This document shows, piece by piece, positions 2,302-40,378 of a stretch of DNA of 64,000 nucleotides. Below the pieces are notes generated by a model. That model did not search any database and had not been told where the DNA came from. It saw only the letters and a list, made by a program, of their open reading frames with translations. The DNA is from Silvimonas terrae (lineage in GTDB: Bacteria > Pseudomonadota > Gammaproteobacteria > Burkholderiales > Chitinibacteraceae). How positions within the stretch are numbered: position 1 is the stretch's first letter; each line of letters begins with the position of its first letter. The stretch spans positions 124,001-188,000 of the forward strand of contig NZ_JACHHN010000004.1 of assembly GCF_014202765.1 (NCBI RefSeq), given 5' to 3'. The position numbers and the translations under genes were made by a program.

Positions 2302-2355
2302 GTCAGGTGTGAGGTACCTGCTCGCATCAAGCGGCGGGCACCCCTCACACCTCAC
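2302..2355. repeat. GTGAGG-type hairpin between rpoB and rpoC
   Basis: Two 13-base arms, 2302-2314 and 2343-2355, are inverted with one mismatch around a 28-base loop. The right arm read on the minus strand is GTGAGGTGTGAGG. The same 13-mer, as an inverted pair, occurs between murI and nth, and its GTGAGGT unit is tandemly repeated after nth. It would be transcribed in the rpoB-rpoC spacer; there is no U-tract, so it is not an ordinary terminator. Confidence 0.7.
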
Positions 2356-2360
2356 ATGGT

Positions 2361-5300
2361 TCAGTTCGTTTCCAGATCGATATCGATACCGAGCGAGCGG
2401 ATTTCCTTCACCAACACGTTGAAGGATTCCGGCATGCCGGCGTCGATGCGATGGTCGCCCTTGACGATGTTTTCATAGACCTTGGTACGGCCATTCACAT
2501 CATCGGACTTCACGGTCAGCATTTCCTGCAAGGTGTATGCCGCACCGTAGGCTTCCAGCGCCCACACTTCCATTTCACCGAAGCGCTGACCACCGAACTG
2601 GGCCTTACCACCCAACGGCTGTTGCGTCACCAGCGAGTACGGACCGGTCGAACGAGCGTGCATCTTGTCGTCAACCAGGTGATGCAGTTTCAGATAGTGC
2701 ATCACACCGACCGACACCTTGCGCTCGAACGGCTCGCCAGTACGGCCATCAAACAGCTGCATTTGCGTCTTGGTGGCGTTGAAATTCAACAGACCCGTAC
2801 GCGCATCGGCGTCCGGATAAGCCAGATCCAGCATGGTATGAATTTCAGCTTCCTTGGCGCCATCAAACACCGGGCTGGCAAACACCATACCCTTGCGCAG
2901 ACCGCCCGCCAGGCGCAGTACTTCGTTATCAGACAGGTTGGCGATGTCTTCTTGCTTGCCCGTCGAGTTATAGATCTGGTCGATGTATTCGCGCACTTCT
3001 GCCACCTGGCGCTGTTCACGCAGCATGGCATCAATACGTTGACCGATACCCTTGGCAGCCCAGCCCAAGTGAACTTCCAGAATCTGACCGATGTTCATCC
3101 GCGACGGCACGCCCAACGGGTTCAGCACGATGTCGACGGTAGTACCATCCGCCATATACGGCAGATCTTCCACTGGCAGAATCTTGGAAACCACACCCTT
3201 GTTACCTTGACGACCGGCCATCTTGTCGCCTGGTTGCAGGCGACGCTTCACCGCAACGTACACCTTGACCATCTTGATCACGCCCGGCGGCAGTTCATCG
3301 CCCTGGGTGAGCTTGCGCTTCTTGTCTTCAAAACGCAGGTCAAAGTCGGCCTTCATCTGGGCCACGAGATCCTTCATGGATTCAAGTTGGCGCGCAGCTT
3401 CTTCATCAGCCAGACGGATGTCGAACCAGTCTTGGCGCGGAGTCAGATCGGCCAGGTATTCCTTGGTGATCTCGGCGCCCTTGGCCAGCTTTTTCGGACC
3501 GCCATTGACGACCTTACCGACAATCATGCGCTCGATACGTTCGAACAAGTCGTTCTCAACGATACGCAGTTGGTCGTTCAAGTCGGTGCGATAACGACGC
3601 AGTTGTTCATCAATGATGGCCTGGGCGCGCTTGTCACGCTCTACGCCTTCACGAGTAAACACTTGAACGTCGATCACGGTACCGGTCATGCCAGACGGCA
3701 CGCGCAGCGAGGTGTCCTTCACATCGGAGGCTTTCTCACCGAAGATCGCACGCAGCAGCTTCTCTTCCGGCGTCAGCTGGGTTTCACCCTTAGGCGTCAC
3801 CTTACCGACCAGCACGTCACCAGCCTCAACTTCAGCACCGATGTACACCACACCGGACTCATCCAGACGGCCCAGCATGCGCTCGGACAGGTTGGAGATA
3901 TCGCGGGTGATTTCTTCCGGGCCCAGCTTGGTATCACGCGCCATCACCGACAGTTCTTCGATGTGGATCGACGTGTAGCGGTCATCTGCCACGACGTTTT
4001 CGGAGATCAAGATCGAATCTTCGAAGTTGTAACCGTTCCACGGCATGAACGCGATGGTCATGTTCTGACCCAGCGCCATTTCACCCAGGTCAGTAGACGC
4101 ACCGTCAGCAATCACGTCGCCCTTGGCGATGCGATCACCGCGCTCGACCACCGGACGCTGGTTGATGTTGGTGTTCTGGTTGGAACGGGTGAACTTGGTC
4201 AGGTTGTAGATATCCACACCGGTTTCGCCGGCTGGCGTTTCGTCGTCGTTCACACGAATAACGATACGGTTGGCATCCACGTAATCAACCACACCACCGC
4301 GCAGCGCGGCCACAGCCGTACCCGAGTCGACCGCACAAGTGCGTTCGATACCGGTACCGACCATCGGCTTTTCAGCGCGCAGGCAAGGCACAGCCTGACG
4401 TTGCATGTTCGAACCCATCAACGCACGGTTCGCATCATCGTGTTCCAGGAACGGAATCAGCGAAGCAGCAACGGACACGATCTGGCTCGGGGCCACGTCC
4501 ATGTACTGCACGCGATCCGGCGTGACGATGATGGTTTCACCGTGTTCACGGCAGGTCACCATGTCGTCGATCAGCGTGCCGGCAGCGTCCAGCTCGGCGT
4601 TAGCCTGAGCGATGACGTACTTGCCTTCTTCAATGGCCGACAGGTATTCGATCTGGTCGGTGACCTTGCTGTCGATCACTTTGCGATACGGGGTTTCGAG
4701 GAAGCCGTATTCGTTGGTGCGCGCATAGCAAGACAGCGAGTTGATCAGACCAATGTTTGGACCTTCCGGCGTTTCAATCGGGCACACACGACCATAGTGA
4801 GTCGGATGCACGTCACGCACTTCAAAGCCGGCGCGTTCACGCGTCAAACCACCCGGGCCAAGGGCCGAAACACGGCGCTTGTGGGTAATTTCAGACAGCG
4901 GGTTGGTCTGGTCCATAAACTGCGACAGCTGTGACGAACCGAAGAATTCCTTGATCGCGGCCGAAACAGGCTTGGCGTTGATCAGGTCATGCGGCATCAG
5001 GTTGTCGGATTCAGCTTGCGACAGACGTTCCTTCACCGCGCGCTCAACGCGAACGAGACCGGCGCGGAACTGGTTTTCGGCCAGTTCGCCCACGGAACGT
5101 ACGCGACGATTGCCCAAGTGATCGATGTCATCGACTTCGCCACGGCCATTGCGCAGTTCGATCAGGATTCCGATCACAGCAATGATGTCGTCAACGGACA
5201 GCGTGCCGGTGCCTTCCAGACCCTGCGGACCCACGCGCTCGTAGAAACGACGCTGCCAGCCCGGTGCCTTCTCTTCCAGACGATCCGGATAGGCGCGACG

Positions 5301-36575: not shown

Positions 36576-37394
36576 ATGTCACAACCGCAAGCATCCTGCC
36601 CGATTGGGGTTTTTGACTCCGGCGTCGGCGGTCTGACCGTCGTGCGTGCGCTGATGGACCGTCTCCCCTTTGAGAACATTGTCTACTTTGGCGATACCGC
36701 CCGCGTGCCCTACGGCGTGAAGTCGGTCTCCACCATTGAGCACTTCACCCTGCAGATTGTGGATTTCCTGCAAAAGCAGCAGGTGAAGATGCTGATCATT
36801 GCCTGTAACACCATGGCCGCTGTCGCCGCCGAAAAAGTGCGGGAAGTCTCGCCGCTGCCGGTGCTGGATGTCATTGAAGCCGGCGCGCGCTGCGCGGTGC
36901 AAAGCACCCAAAGCGGCGGGATTGGCGTAATTGGCACGCCCACCACCATCAACTCCAACGCCTACGCCCGCGCCATTCACAGTCTGGGTCAGCAGTACCA
37001 CGTGTATTCGCAAGCCTGCCCGCTGTTTGTGCCGCTGGTAGAAGAAGGCTGGCTGGAGCACCCGGTCACCCGCCTGACCGCCGAGGAATACCTCAAGCCG
37101 GTATTTGTCGAACAGATCGACACGCTGGTGCTGGGCTGTACACACTACCCGCTGCTCAAACCCCTGTTGTCTGATGTGGCCGGCCCGCGCCTGAAACTGG
37201 TGGATTCCGCCATTGCCATTGCCGACGAAACCGCACAGTTGCTGCAAGAACAAGGCCTTGCCAACCCACAGCGCACCATGCCGGACTACCGTTATTTCGT
37301 CACCGACGTGCCGTTGAAGTTCCGCAGCGTGGGCGAGCGTTTCCTTGGACGTAACCTGGGCGCAATCGAGCAAGTGAGTATTGATAGACTGTGA
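36576..37394 (+). CDS. murI: Glutamate racemase
   Basis: MurI, 272 residues, makes D-glutamate for peptidoglycan. N-terminal FDSGVGGLTV (about 13-22) and the two catalytic cysteines in IACNTMAA (about 75) and LGCTHYPLL (about 187) are all present. The ATG at 36576 has GGGGAG upstream. It is followed by nth, with a GTGAGG-type hairpin in between. Confidence 0.98.
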   Translation: MSQPQASCPIGVFDSGVGGLTVVRALMDRLPFENIVYFGDTARVPYGVKSVSTIEHFTLQIVDFLQKQQVKMLIIACNTMAAVAAEKVREVSPLPVLDVIEAGARCAVQSTQSGGIGVIGTPTTINSNAYARAIHSLGQQYHVYSQACPLFVPLVEEGWLEHPVTRLTAEEYLKPVFVEQIDTLVLGCTHYPLLKPLLSDVAGPRLKLVDSAIAIADETAQLLQEQGLANPQRTMPDYRYFVTDVPLKFRSVGERFLGRNLGAIEQVSIDRL

Positions 37395-37465
37395 GGCGTG
37401 AGGGGTGAAGCGAAAAAGCCGGCCCCCAGCGTTTTTCACCTCACTCTTCCCACCTCACACCTCAC
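37391..37465. repeat. GTGAGG-type hairpin between murI and nth
   Basis: Outer arms GTGAGGCGTGAGG (37391-37403) and the complement of GTGAGGTGTGAGG (37453-37465), one mismatch. The interior has a short A5/T5 pair around GCCGGCCCCCAGC. It starts inside the murI stop region and ends seven bases before the nth ATG. Same element type as in the rpoB-rpoC spacer. Confidence 0.7.
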
Positions 37466-37471
37466 GCCAAT

Positions 37472-38122
37472 ATGAACAAAGAAAAACGCCACCAGTTCTA
37501 CCAGCGCCTGCAAGAGCTGGACCCCCACCCCACTACCGAGCTGGAATACACCACGCCGTTTGAATTGCTGGCGGCGGTATTGCTATCGGCCCAGGCCACG
37601 GACGTGGGGGTCAACAAAGCCACGCGCAAATTGTTCCCCGTTGCCAATACTCCGGCCACCATTCTGGCGCTGGGGCAGGAAGGGCTGGAGGCTTATATCG
37701 CCACCATCGGCCTGTATCGCAGCAAGGCCAAACACTTGCTGGAGACCTGTCGTATCTTGCTGGAAAAACACGACGGCGCAGTCCCGCAGGATAGAGAAGC
37801 GCTGGAAGCGTTGCCCGGTGTGGGCCGCAAGACGGCCAACGTGGTGATGAATACGGCCTTTGGCCACGCGACCATCGCGGTCGATACCCATATCTTTCGC
37901 GTCGCTAACCGTACCGGTCTGGCGCCAGGTAAAGACGTGCGCGTGGTAGAAGACAAGCTGATGAAGGTGACGCCGCTGGAATTTCGCCAGGATGCGCACC
38001 ACTGGCTGATTTTGCATGGCCGCTATGTTTGCAAGGCCCGGCGGCCGGAGTGCTGGCGTTGTGTGGTCAATGACCTGTGTGATTTCAAGCCCAAAGAGCT
38101 GACGCCCCCGAAGGGGCGCTGA
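37472..38122 (+). CDS. nth: Endonuclease III (DNA glycosylase/AP lyase)
   Basis: Nth, 216 residues, removes oxidised pyrimidines and cuts the abasic site. The helix-hairpin-helix LPGVGRKTANVV (about 113-124) contains the catalytic lysine, and the catalytic aspartate is in VDTHIFRVANR (about 138). The [4Fe-4S] ligands follow the C-x6-C-x2-C-x5-C pattern in CKARRPECWRCVVNDLC (about 187-203). The gene is flanked on both sides by GTGAGGT-type repeats. Confidence 0.98.
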   Translation: MNKEKRHQFYQRLQELDPHPTTELEYTTPFELLAAVLLSAQATDVGVNKATRKLFPVANTPATILALGQEGLEAYIATIGLYRSKAKHLLETCRILLEKHDGAVPQDREALEALPGVGRKTANVVMNTAFGHATIAVDTHIFRVANRTGLAPGKDVRVVEDKLMKVTPLEFRQDAHHWLILHGRYVCKARRPECWRCVVNDLCDFKPKELTPPKGR

Positions 38123-38458
38123 GAGGTGTGCGGTGTGAGGTGTGAGGTGTGAGGTGTGAGGTGTGAGGTGTGAGGTGTGAGGTGTGAGGTGTGAGGTGTG
38201 CCAGATTGTGTGTCCACTTCATCATGCCTCGCAAACCAATACTTCGTCATTCCGGCCTTGAGCCGGAATCCAGGTGTAAACAGGTGTGCCACAGGCACTG
38301 ACAATGGTTTATCAAATGGTTTGCCAGTGTCTGCCCACCTTTGGTGGGCGGACTGGATTCCGGCTCAAGGCCGGAATGACGAGTCTGGGGTATGCATCCT
38401 TCCCCTTCCTCACTCCTCACTCCTCACTCCTCACTCCTCACTCCTCACTCCTCACTCC
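38123..38458. repeat. Composite repeat: two heptamer arrays flanking an inverted REP-like pair
   Basis: The whole convergent gap between nth and the amylase gene is repeats. Left: nine tandem GTGAGGT units (38132-38194, plus a partial). Right: seven tandem CACTCCT units (38411-38459), which on the minus strand are GTGAGGA, differing by one base. Between them a perfect 28-bp inverted repeat lies at 38245-38272 and 38354-38381; each arm is itself a small hairpin (ATTCCGGC/GCCGGAAT), the layout of a REP doublet. The gap could fold into one very long hairpin. Confidence 0.9.
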
Positions 38459-40378
38459 TCACGACTTGAAACTGCCGTCATTCAGCGACTGGCTGCCCGA
38501 GGTGCATGTGGTCACTTCACGGTTGCCGCTGCTCGTGGACTGGTTGCTCTCCCACGTTGCCGTGCTGCCGTTCCATTTCACATACTTGTACTGGATGGCT
38601 GTGCCTGCCGGCAGGGAGACCGTACCGGTCCACGGCACATTGGCGCCGCTGCCCTGAATGGTCAGGGCAACGCCACTGGCTGGCGTCCAGTTACCCAGCG
38701 CAGACTGGTTGCCCACCACATACAGGTTCTGGCCAAAAACAGTGTTGGCATTGGCAATGGTAAAGGTCACCGCGCAAGTACCGGAGCCCGTGCCGCCGCC
38801 CGATGAGCCCGCGCCAGACTTCTGGCCGGTGTAGATTGCCACCGCAGGTACCGTCGCCCCACCGTTGGCCGGCAGCGTGATGGTGGCGTAACCGTTGCCA
38901 TCCACCGTCACACTATCGCTGGCGCAACCCGTGCTGGTCGCCAGGCCATGTGCCACGTTGCAGTAAGTCCCTGCGGCGAGGCCGGTCTGGAAACTTTGGG
39001 TCCAGGCACTGGTGTCGTTATTGAGCGCCACAAAACCCACTGCACCACGGCTGAACGCAATCTGGTTGCCATTACCGGTCACCCAGTTGCTGACGCCCTG
39101 CCCATTGGTGGCAGTGCGGAACTTCACCATATTGGCAATATCACCCCAGCGGTGGACAAAGTCCCAGTTCACATTGATCTGTGCGTTGCCACTGGCGTCA
39201 TACGGGCTGGCCGTTGGCGCATCCTGGTCAATGGTGCTGAAGCGGTAGCCCGACATCACCTGCACCTGGCTGGCATAGGGCCAGGCCAGCATGAAGATAT
39301 TGGCCAGATCAAAGCGCTTGGTGCCAGAAGCATCGTTGGTGGCACCGGTGTAGTTACTGGCGTTGAGCGAATCCGTACCGCTGCGTTCGGTATCCCAATT
39401 ATCCACAAACACCACGGCGTTGGCCGGTTGCACAAAGCCCCACGTGCCGCCCCAATTACCCGGTGTGCCCATCACGGTCGGGATGGAAGCCAGATTCAGC
39501 CCGTTGTTGTTGCGGAAGGTGTCACGGATGGCGTAGGTAAACTGGAATTCGTTGAGCGTGCCGTTCTGGAAATAATCCGAGCGCACCACATTGCCATCCG
39601 GAATCACCTCTTGCGTCACCCACAGGTTTTCACCGGCCAGCGTGGTCGGGTAACTGGATTTCACGTTGTTCAGGATGGTATTGAGGGCATCCGGCTGCTG
39701 ATGCTTGGCGGCGTCGATACGGAACCCGTCCACGCCCAGCGACAGCAGTTTCTTCATGTAGGTTTCGATGACGCTTTGCACGTAGGTGCTTTCGGTCGCC
39801 AGGTCGGGCAGGTTGTTCAGGCGGCAAAACATCACGTTATTGCGATTGCCCGGTGTGCCGTAGTCACTGGACTGGATCTGGCACAGGCTGTGGAAATCGT
39901 TGGCGGAAAACTGCGGGTAAGTCAGCGTGCTGGCATTCCAGCTAGAGCCATCGGTGGCGCTGTAGCCGCTGCTGGAGTCCTGCGACAACTGGTTGACCAC
40001 GATGTCGGCATAGACGCGCACACCGGCGGCGTGACACGTGCTGACCATGTTTTGCAGACCACTCTCCGTCCCCATGCGGCTGGTGAGCGAGCCATAGTTC
40101 ACTGGCTGGAACATATCCCACCAGGCGCCGGCAATCTTGGAGGCCTGCGGCGGCGAGATCTGCACCGCGCCGTAACCATTCGGCCCCAGGAAGGCGGTAC
40201 ATTCCTGGGCGATATCGGTCCATTTCCAGTGGAACATCTGGACCGAGGTATACGCCGGATTAAAACTGCTGGGTGTTGTACTACTGCTGGTGGTGGCTGC
40301 AACGGCGGCACTACCGCCGCCGCACGCGGCCAGTACCGCGCACAGCAGACTGCTTGTGACTGTGAATGCAACTTTCAT
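38459..40378 (-). CDS. Lipoprotein alpha-amylase (GH13) with C-terminal CBM20
   Basis: A 639-residue exported amylase. A signal peptide ends in lipobox LAAC (C19), followed by a Ser/Thr linker. The GH13 barrel has nucleophile D222 (GFRIDAAKH), acid/base E257 and transition-state stabiliser D329 (FVDNWDTER). Region I reads ADIVVNQ, with Gln130 where most family members have His. Residues about 545-639 are a CBM20 starch-binding domain (LYVVGNQSALGNW). Predicted to degrade starch at the cell surface or periplasm. Its stop codon lies inside the heptamer array. Confidence 0.93.
   Translation of the reverse strand: MKVAFTVTSSLLCAVLAACGGGSAAVAATTSSSTTPSSFNPAYTSVQMFHWKWTDIAQECTAFLGPNGYGAVQISPPQASKIAGAWWDMFQPVNYGSLTSRMGTESGLQNMVSTCHAAGVRVYADIVVNQLSQDSSSGYSATDGSSWNASTLTYPQFSANDFHSLCQIQSSDYGTPGNRNNVMFCRLNNLPDLATESTYVQSVIETYMKKLLSLGVDGFRIDAAKHQQPDALNTILNNVKSSYPTTLAGENLWVTQEVIPDGNVVRSDYFQNGTLNEFQFTYAIRDTFRNNNGLNLASIPTVMGTPGNWGGTWGFVQPANAVVFVDNWDTERSGTDSLNASNYTGATNDASGTKRFDLANIFMLAWPYASQVQVMSGYRFSTIDQDAPTASPYDASGNAQINVNWDFVHRWGDIANMVKFRTATNGQGVSNWVTGNGNQIAFSRGAVGFVALNNDTSAWTQSFQTGLAAGTYCNVAHGLATSTGCASDSVTVDGNGYATITLPANGGATVPAVAIYTGQKSGAGSSGGGTGSGTCAVTFTIANANTVFGQNLYVVGNQSALGNWTPASGVALTIQGSGANVPWTGTVSLPAGTAIQYKYVKWNGSTATWESNQSTSSGNREVTTCTSGSQSLNDGSFKS

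Follow-up and report, generated by a model that had tools for sequence, protein, structure and literature searches.

A dispersed mosaic repeat with heptamer arrays flush with stop codons, and related hairpins whose seventh bases avoid pairing, in Silvimonas terrae and its relatives

In a 64,000-nt stretch of the Silvimonas terrae genome (contig NZ_JACHHN010000004.1, positions 124,001 to 188,000; hereafter the window, numbered from its first base), the genes nth and that of an alpha-amylase converge on an intergenic repeat made of two inverted arrays of GTGAGGN heptamers, which enclose two spacers, two inverted palindromes and a core (Table 1). Upstream of nth lies a murI-like gene with an Asp/Glu racemase domain. 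The first array, the T-array, adjoins the nth stop codon (38120-38122); ahead of the nine exact GTGAGGT units that an earlier sequence-only reading of this DNA had counted, it has one imperfect GTGCGGT and a partial unit. On the opposite strand, the amylase stop codon (38461-38459) is the TGA within the outermost GTGAGG of the second array, the A-array; the reading had rightly set this array of GTGAGGA units at the stop codon, but had given it seven units instead of eight. The small palindromes inside the element form the doublet that it described, and their inverted match is perfect as claimed, over 30 nt rather than 28 bp. Tandem Repeats Finder reported period 7 at 38123-38200 (11.1 copies, 97% matches) and at 38407-38462 (8.0 copies, 100% matches). 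The window has 21 two-unit matches with at most one mismatch, where shuffled sequence has 0.41 ± 0.64 (0/100 shuffles reach 21).

Table 1. Positions of the repeat, its neighbouring genes and the related hairpins in the window.
Feature	Coordinates	Strand	Description
T-array, GTGAGGT heptamers	38123..38200	+	Nine exact units at 38135-38196 plus an imperfect start, adjoining the nth stop codon
Left spacer of composite	38201..38243	+	'TGTGCCAGATT...' also behind other T-arrays of the genome (L153, L158)
Palindrome 1	38244..38273	+	Repeated motif GTCATTCCGGCCTTGAGCCGGAATCCAG, dRS3-like
Core, 79 nt, small hairpins	38274..38352	.	Near-same core in L153 and L191; core start also in L139
Palindrome 2, inverted	38353..38382	-	Perfect complement of palindrome 1 across 30 nt
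Right spacer GTCTGGGGTATGCATCCTTCCCCT	38383..38406	-	Near-identical next to A-arrays of several other copies in this genome
A-array, eight GTGAGGA heptamers	38407..38462	-	Exact units 38408-38462; outermost unit holds the amylase stop codon
nth, endonuclease III	37472..38122	+	Stop codon at 38120-38122
Alpha-amylase with C-terminal CBM20 starch-binding domain	38459..40378	-	Stop codon at 38461-38459
Class B hairpin, murI-nth	37391..37465	+	Both arms of mixed heptamers; includes the murI stop codon
Class B-type hairpin, rpoB-next gene	2302..2355	-	GTGAGG...CCTCAC at this junction in 12/12 family genomes examined

The 346-nt element folds as a single long hairpin, the giant hairpin that had been proposed for it, with a predicted RNA energy of -216 kcal/mol (z -16.7) and a DNA z-score of -17.0; 0/100 shuffles folded as well, for RNA and for DNA alike. 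In the predicted fold the heptamer arms form six-pair runs split by single U.U mismatches, in keeping with the suggestion that the inverted, near-complementary arrays pair with a mismatch at every seventh base. At the gathering score, Rfam gave five matches in the window, all of them tRNA and none on the element, and a known RNA family was rejected on that count. A simple scan for an intrinsic terminator (a G+C-rich stem with a T run) found none from 38123 to 38462, and also missed the terminator-like hairpin that follows nth in the related genome G001, described below, which shows its sensitivity to be incomplete.

The nth/amylase repeat is one copy of a dispersed intergenic mosaic family. 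The S. terrae genome (G000; 4.83 Mb, draft, 99.99% complete) contains 197 places with exact triple heptamers, and array starts number 52 against 4 for a reversed-pattern control. The reversed-pattern controls of two other heptamer counts (101 and 84 places) are inflated because A-arrays match the reversed pattern, and 52 versus 4 is the fair figure. The palindrome, with at most three mismatches, occurs at 111 places, against 0 in the control. The sequence-only reading had named the absence of other copies as the sign of a local slippage product; the genome-wide search found many further copies, and local slippage alone is thereby ruled out. For closer comparison, 53 G000 stretches around arrays and palindromes were taken and their arrays listed by script; five of the 80 loci from a wider nth comparison were also used (L031, L032, L038, L043, L048). 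Gene ends were taken from a home-made codon-usage caller rather than from annotation.

The composite copies, which we call class A, follow the layout (GTGAGGT)n - spacer - palindrome - core - palindrome - spacer - (TCCTCAC)m. Both ends are seen in seven G000 copies (L152, L153, L159, L163, L166, L175 and the window), all with A-units at one end and T-units at the other, mixed in L163. Copies vary in core, spacer variant and unit number, some lack one end, and the palindromes form doublets in several copies and are single in others. A near-same right spacer adjoins the A-arrays of L139, L153, L159, L160, L166, L171, L175 and the window; L145 has a short version of it, L152 and L163 none. The family sits at gene ends and inside operons, convergent junctions not being its sole setting. 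Exact triple heptamers were found in 13/37 genomes of the bacterial family Chitinibacteraceae and, across the wider taxonomic class, in 17/369 genomes including this one: the GTGAGGN unit is rare, yet not confined to the Chitinibacteraceae.

The palindromes recall elements of Neisseria, a genus that we take to belong to the same order, Neisseriales, as this bacterium. In the neisserial intergenic mosaic elements (NIME), short palindromes with ATTCC...GGAAT ends flank variable cores; the palindrome there, dRS3, is a 20-bp ATTCCC(N8)GGGAAT, and the repeat cores measure 30-160 bp (PMC3898611). As in NIME, palindromes flank intergenic cores in S. terrae, of 79 nt in the nth element and of other sequence elsewhere in the genome. 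Unlike dRS3, the palindrome takes the form ATTCCG(N9)CGGAAT at 45 places, against 3 that fit dRS3 (54 G000 stretches), and both palindromes of the nth element have the N9 form. Terminal heptamer arrays also set the present family apart, none being mentioned for NIME in the part of that account drawn on here (PMC3898611).

Several further observations concern the make-up of the copies. In L163 (contig C6:8000-14000), a short T/G heptamer array at about 3110-3187 continues into a GTGCGGT series, a variant beside the standard heptamer. At 2347-2878 of L181 (C1:490500-496500), three palindromes recur every 255 bp with similar intervening sequence, a mosaic element that was amplified as a block. 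A 16-unit heptamer array of G002 (L240) lies at what appears to be the corresponding stop codon, where G000 has a single unit. By eye, the palindrome stretches L179, L183, L184, L185 and L186 are flanked by hexamer-like arrays, for instance (AAAACC)n, (CAACGG)n and (GCTGTT)n, often inverted about the element, and perhaps represent a parallel composite family. The draft assembly breaks at arrays (ends of C3, C5, C12 and C13, start of C11) and at a palindrome (start of C10), and the longest arrays are therefore probably under-counted.

Three aspects go beyond the sequence-only reading: the flush fit of the arrays to stop codons, the intercistronic class described below, and the statistical signal of seventh-base avoidance. 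Among 73 arrays in 41 G000 stretches, 37 have the stop codon of a gene on their 5' side, and 36 of these 37 start between -11 and +13 nt of it. Random placement within the same gaps yields 7.6 ± 2.2, with a maximum of 18 in 20,000 trials, and in the long-gap subset 20/21 stop-side arrays are flush, against 1.9 under the null. In ten of the 37 the array starts at -4, the stop codon being the TGA of the first unit. The arrays also have a polarity: among homogeneous arrays of at least four units with a known neighbour, all 12 T-arrays stand behind a stop codon, and 9/11 A-arrays face a gene start (P 7e-5). Stop-side arrays start within the same -11 to +13 interval in 14/16 cases in G002, 17/18 in G008, 14/16 in G030 and 13/16 in G035, counts drawn from 18 to 20 stretches per genome, G005 included, and not from every array. 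The distant genomes with heptamer arrays (G387, G393, G144, G297, G100 and G424) stand outside these counts, gene calls from their few stretches being poor. Since every unit contains a TGA and the 7-nt period brings it into all three frames, growth of an array at a stop codon would be harmless.

A second class of elements, class B, lies between co-directional genes, in the window at murI-nth and between rpoB and the next gene, which we take to be rpoC. Its members have about four mixed GTGAGGN units per arm; GTAAAACC often comes next, and an unrelated core precedes the inverted arm. Elements with internal ATTCC and GGAAT were excluded from the set. Other junctions with class B, named by eye, include sucB-lpd-sucC-sucD, aceE-aceF, ilvN-ilvC, nrdA-nrdB, iscS, fliP and transporter operons; the identities of sucC and rpoB were confirmed by profile. 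The elements span the space between stop and start: in 47 of 51 co-directional elements from six genomes the first arm begins at -11 to +10 nt of the stop codon, and in 38/51 the end of the last arm lies 5-20 nt upstream of the start codon, roughly where the ribosome-binding site is. Some junctions carry the hairpin throughout the 12 family genomes examined. In all 12, the rpoB spacer has GTGAGG 4-5 nt past the stop codon and CCTCAC just ahead of the AGGAG or TGGAG that precedes the next start, and the aceE spacer forms a strong hairpin; at aceE-aceF and rpoB-rpoC, the spacers of 12/12 genomes are more stably folded than their shuffles (z -2.5 to -8.8). At sucC-sucD, class B is present in 3/12 (G000, G002, and G030 of another genus), with spacers of 139-147 nt, against 21-30 nt in the other nine. 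Judged from these distributions, class B seems long established at some junctions and a recent gain at others. At aceE-aceF of G005 (L378), both arms are built of other heptamers, about GRGAAGN, a unit-wide replacement with pairing kept.

The seventh base of the unit is free, and in class B elements opposed seventh bases avoid pairing. The register of each element was set by folding it with the seventh bases masked, and the opposed seventh bases were then scored; an earlier test had chosen the register with these bases visible, and we rely on the masked version. Dropping three G002 elements and those with homogeneous arms reduced the set from 62 to 51 elements of five genera, 49 of them with opposed pairs. 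Only 8/111 opposed seventh bases are Watson-Crick pairs, against 29.6 ± 4.6 expected, and 0/20,000 permutations gave a count as low; 41/49 elements have no such pair at all. The full set before dropping rows gives 15/142 against 38.4 expected, and when one random pair is taken per element, in three draws, 1-3 of 49 are Watson-Crick (P at most 0.0005). Within single genera the counts are 2/37 in G000 (P 0.003), 0/14 in G030 (P 0.014) and 0/15 in G035 (P 0.005). The class A copy at nth meets this rule trivially, T standing opposite T. Read in the sense of the mRNA (44 elements and 92 pairs, after seven elements not between co-directional genes were dropped), G.U occurs 5 times against 9.5 expected (P 0.04) and A.C 14 times against 12.4, in small numbers. 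Since G.U is low and A.C is not, the avoidance points to the transcript rather than to DNA. A wobble asymmetry between the arms is weak (P 0.06 and 0.10).

The closest precedent for such arrays is in Xanthomonas, where heptamers GGGAATC / GGGANTN occur mostly four per array and often as convergent inverted pairs, 70 in Xcc and 75 in Xac. They are intergenic, with the G-rich strand close behind stop codons or, on the non-coding strand, close ahead of starts; they recur at the same junctions in related species with variable length, and have been interpreted as quadruplex-forming (PMC4692102). The S. terrae arrays share with them, as far as the portion of that account used here goes, the inverted convergent arrangement, the number of about four units and the position near stop codons on the coding strand. 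They differ in having another unit, without three-G runs in the T- and A-arrays, in belonging to a palindrome-bearing composite, none being reported in that portion (PMC4692102), and in how the unit positions match between arms. We applied a similar masking and folding, with a looser opposed-base rule, to 13 inverted GGGANTN pairs from 30 loci, out of 114 places in one Xanthomonas genome, and three nth stretches (two of other Xanthomonas). Position 7 is Watson-Crick in 13/35 cases against 13.3 expected, that is, without avoidance, and position 5 is complementary in 31/39 against 20.2; in the same stretches 14/28 stop-side arrays lie within -11 to +13 of the stop codon. The procedure alone therefore does not create the effect seen in class B. 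Inverted heptamer arrays near stop codons are thus already published for Xanthomonas, and the new part here is the seventh-base avoidance: no account of GTGAGGN hairpins or of such avoidance was found in searches of the open-licence literature, subscription papers lying outside the scope of the search.

Comparison with close relatives indicates turnover of the arrays. The nth gene of S. terrae is 82% identical to that of Chitinibacter tainanensis, which places the bacterium in the Chitinibacteraceae. In G002, the closest relative compared (nth 98%), the nth junction shares this layout; it has nine T-units and two A-units, and its spacers and core are different. G001 (nth 96%) has no element there, only 65 nt with a terminator-like hairpin (z -5.9). 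Fourteen further array-bearing stop codons of G000 were compared with G002 and G001, some of the pairs (L147, L158) being merely 73-77% identical. An array of two or more units stands at the same stop codon in 6/14 cases in G002 and 0/14 in G001, and 2/14 G001 orthologues have a single GTGAGG there. Exact units in G000 and G002 number, respectively, 4 and 17 at L140, 7 and 4 at L143, 4 and 7 at L146, 6 and 5 at L150, 4 and 13 at L163, and 10 and 4 at L166; the expectation that copy number varies is thus borne out between two species of one genus. Twelve loci offered enough DNA to place the point where synteny returns: it lies 148-383 nt past the stop codon in G000 but 19-126 nt past it in G001, which makes the G000 region 87-328 bp longer. 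No match of at least 40 nt to the G001 spacer was found before the synteny point in these 12 loci; short remnants may persist. Since the array side leaves almost no spacer past the stop codon, the element seems to replace the spacer rather than sit inside it, and class A seems to stand in place of the relative's spacer from the stop codon onward. By eye, terminator-like hairpins occupy the G001 junctions L146, L166 and L172. Upstream of nth (L193, L194), the murI-nth spacer contains a different repeat in G001 (AATCCACC...GGTGGATT), which other stretches show as well, and measures only 7 nt in G003; judged from these sequences, this spacer is filled differently among related species.

On balance, and with moderate confidence, we favour the reading that a dispersed mosaic, class A, belongs to a wider set of heptamer stems, class B, which would act as 3'-end and intercistronic hairpins of RNA, spread by recombination and resized by slippage. 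The following mode of action is inferred from the anatomy, the folds and the turnover. The arms would close one long stem between the stop codon and the opposite end of the element, which would act in RNA either as a 3'-end barrier for the upstream message or, in operons, as a bridge from stop codon to ribosome-binding site. At gene ends, the stem may block 3'-to-5' exonucleases, and perhaps transcription, taking over from an ordinary terminator; between the genes of an operon, it would shield the upstream message and hold the stop and the next start close together. The periodic mismatches could prevent a continuous duplex, such as a substrate of RNase III, or an unstable DNA palindrome. Copies probably spread when their heptamers and palindromes recombine or undergo gene conversion, an exchange that would transfer whole or partial composites, and slippage would lengthen and shorten the arrays.

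Several observations weigh against this reading. The flush fit is weaker in G005, with 8/17 stop-side arrays inside the 13-nt limit. Behind the element at L146, a terminator-like stretch seems to persist in G000, and G002 has it too; 8/14 array-bearing stop codons are array-free in G002, the element therefore being dispensable for those genes. The ilvN and carA spacers give mixed folding results (z +0.1 to -7.4), one carA spacer measuring only 10 nt. Seventh-base avoidance is significant alone in 3/5 genera, G005 (4/24, P 0.12) and G008 (2/21, P 0.09) only leaning that way, and the pooled counts include orthologous junctions shared between genera. Within the six-base cores, 84/231 opposed unit pairs deviate; compensatory change was sought and found in 1/84, changed identically in both arms. 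These core changes being uncompensated, core pairing is not shown to be selected base by base, and changes that keep a G.U outnumber those that break it by 20 to 10, a weak preference (P 0.10). Finally, since position 7 pairs at chance in Xanthomonas, the mismatch is no general need of such hairpins.

The most serious rival, unlikely in our estimate, holds that these are mostly neutral simple repeats: GTGAGG seeds at stop codons would expand by slippage and survive since the units supply stops, the inverted partner and the hairpin being side effects. It fits the large unit-number differences between close species, the long homogeneous arrays, the single GTGAGG at the stop codon of two array-free G001 orthologues, the ten arrays whose first TGA is the stop codon itself, and the restriction of exact triple heptamers to about a third of the family genomes. 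Neutral expansion leaves out, however, the T/A polarity of the inverted partners, the spacers, palindromes and cores common to copies, the avoidance of seventh-base pairing, and the recurrence of hairpins at the same operon junctions across genera.

We consider it improbable that the family is a miniature element mobilised by a transposase, of the REPIN or miniature inverted-repeat transposable element (MITE) type, with the heptamers or palindromes as its ends. A repetitive extragenic palindromic sequence (REP) is a single conserved palindrome that often has a RAYT partner, and the inverted doublet of short palindromes in many copies is reminiscent of REPIN/RAYT systems. The dispersed copies with conserved parts, and their presence or absence between close species, suit this origin. 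Yet the RAYT partner foreseen by the sequence-only reading was not found: PF01797 gave 0 matches in G000, 99.99% complete as it is, in a search (PF01797 only, other transposase families not being searched) whose control was positive in 5/14 genomes, and a RAYT origin is ruled out on that basis. No target-site duplication was seen by eye at the compared junctions, where repetitive ends would hide short ones; the left boundary sits on the stop codon, the relative's spacer leaves no long match before synteny resumes, and the interiors differ between G000 and G002 at one junction. The REPs of Escherichia coli form stem-loops no further than about 15 nt from stop codons; their reported effect is to stall ribosomes and reduce translation, or to act as an exonuclease block, with nrdAB as a named case (PMC12306157). 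The present stem-loops are likewise stop-proximal, and an nrdA-like junction (L174, named by eye) carries class B, but their stems are built of heptamers and the genome yielded no RAYT gene. BrickBuilt of Porphyromonas gingivalis is a dispersed intergenic MITE with an internal 23-nt minisatellite, 49-591 nt from coding sequences (PMC4596501); it too is a small intergenic element with a tandem array, in the part of that description used here, whereas in S. terrae the arrays lie at the ends of the element, flush with stop codons.

That the heptamers are iterons, binding sites for a protein on DNA or RNA with the hairpin secondary, seems very doubtful. Six fixed bases with a free seventh, the strict 7-nt phase and about four units per class B arm are what such sites might look like, and a regulator-site role has been proposed for other intergenic heptamers, the TAACTGA repeats of Beggiatoaceae (PMC4679880, in the part of it consulted). 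These are intergenic 7-nt tandems with stop codons in the unit and a patchy distribution, features shared here; they form direct repeats (169 sets, one of them indirect) mostly just ahead of start codons (PMC4679880), unlike the inverted arrays at stop codons in S. terrae. No candidate protein is at hand, none having been sought, unit number varies from 2 to 19, and a free seventh base does not account for opposed seventh bases avoiding pairing. A G-quadruplex or other non-B DNA function has the precedent of G-rich heptamers at the same positions in Xanthomonas (in the portion of PMC4692102 cited above) and is hardly credible here, GTGAGGN having no three-G run unless its seventh base is G, and T- and A-arrays, with GG runs only, being ruled out by their sequence.

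Returning to the heptamer stems as RNA hairpins, a more specific and tentative proposal is that periodic non-pairing is itself selected: six pairs and one obligatory mismatch would repeat from the stop codon to the next ribosome-binding site, folding the spacer away, making stop and start neighbours, and hiding the helix from double-strand RNA processing, and class A may bring the same architecture to gene ends, replacing terminators. Bacterial heptamer repeats and intergenic hairpin repeats are old puzzles without an accepted function, and they are joined here in one family. The handle that this family offers is a free position that avoids complementarity beside six pairable conserved positions, at many junctions and in several genera. 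If the avoidance acts in RNA, the role of the hairpins and the enzyme that they would escape become directly testable. The comparison between close relatives suggests that a mosaic repeat is rewriting the 3' ends of genes in closely related species.

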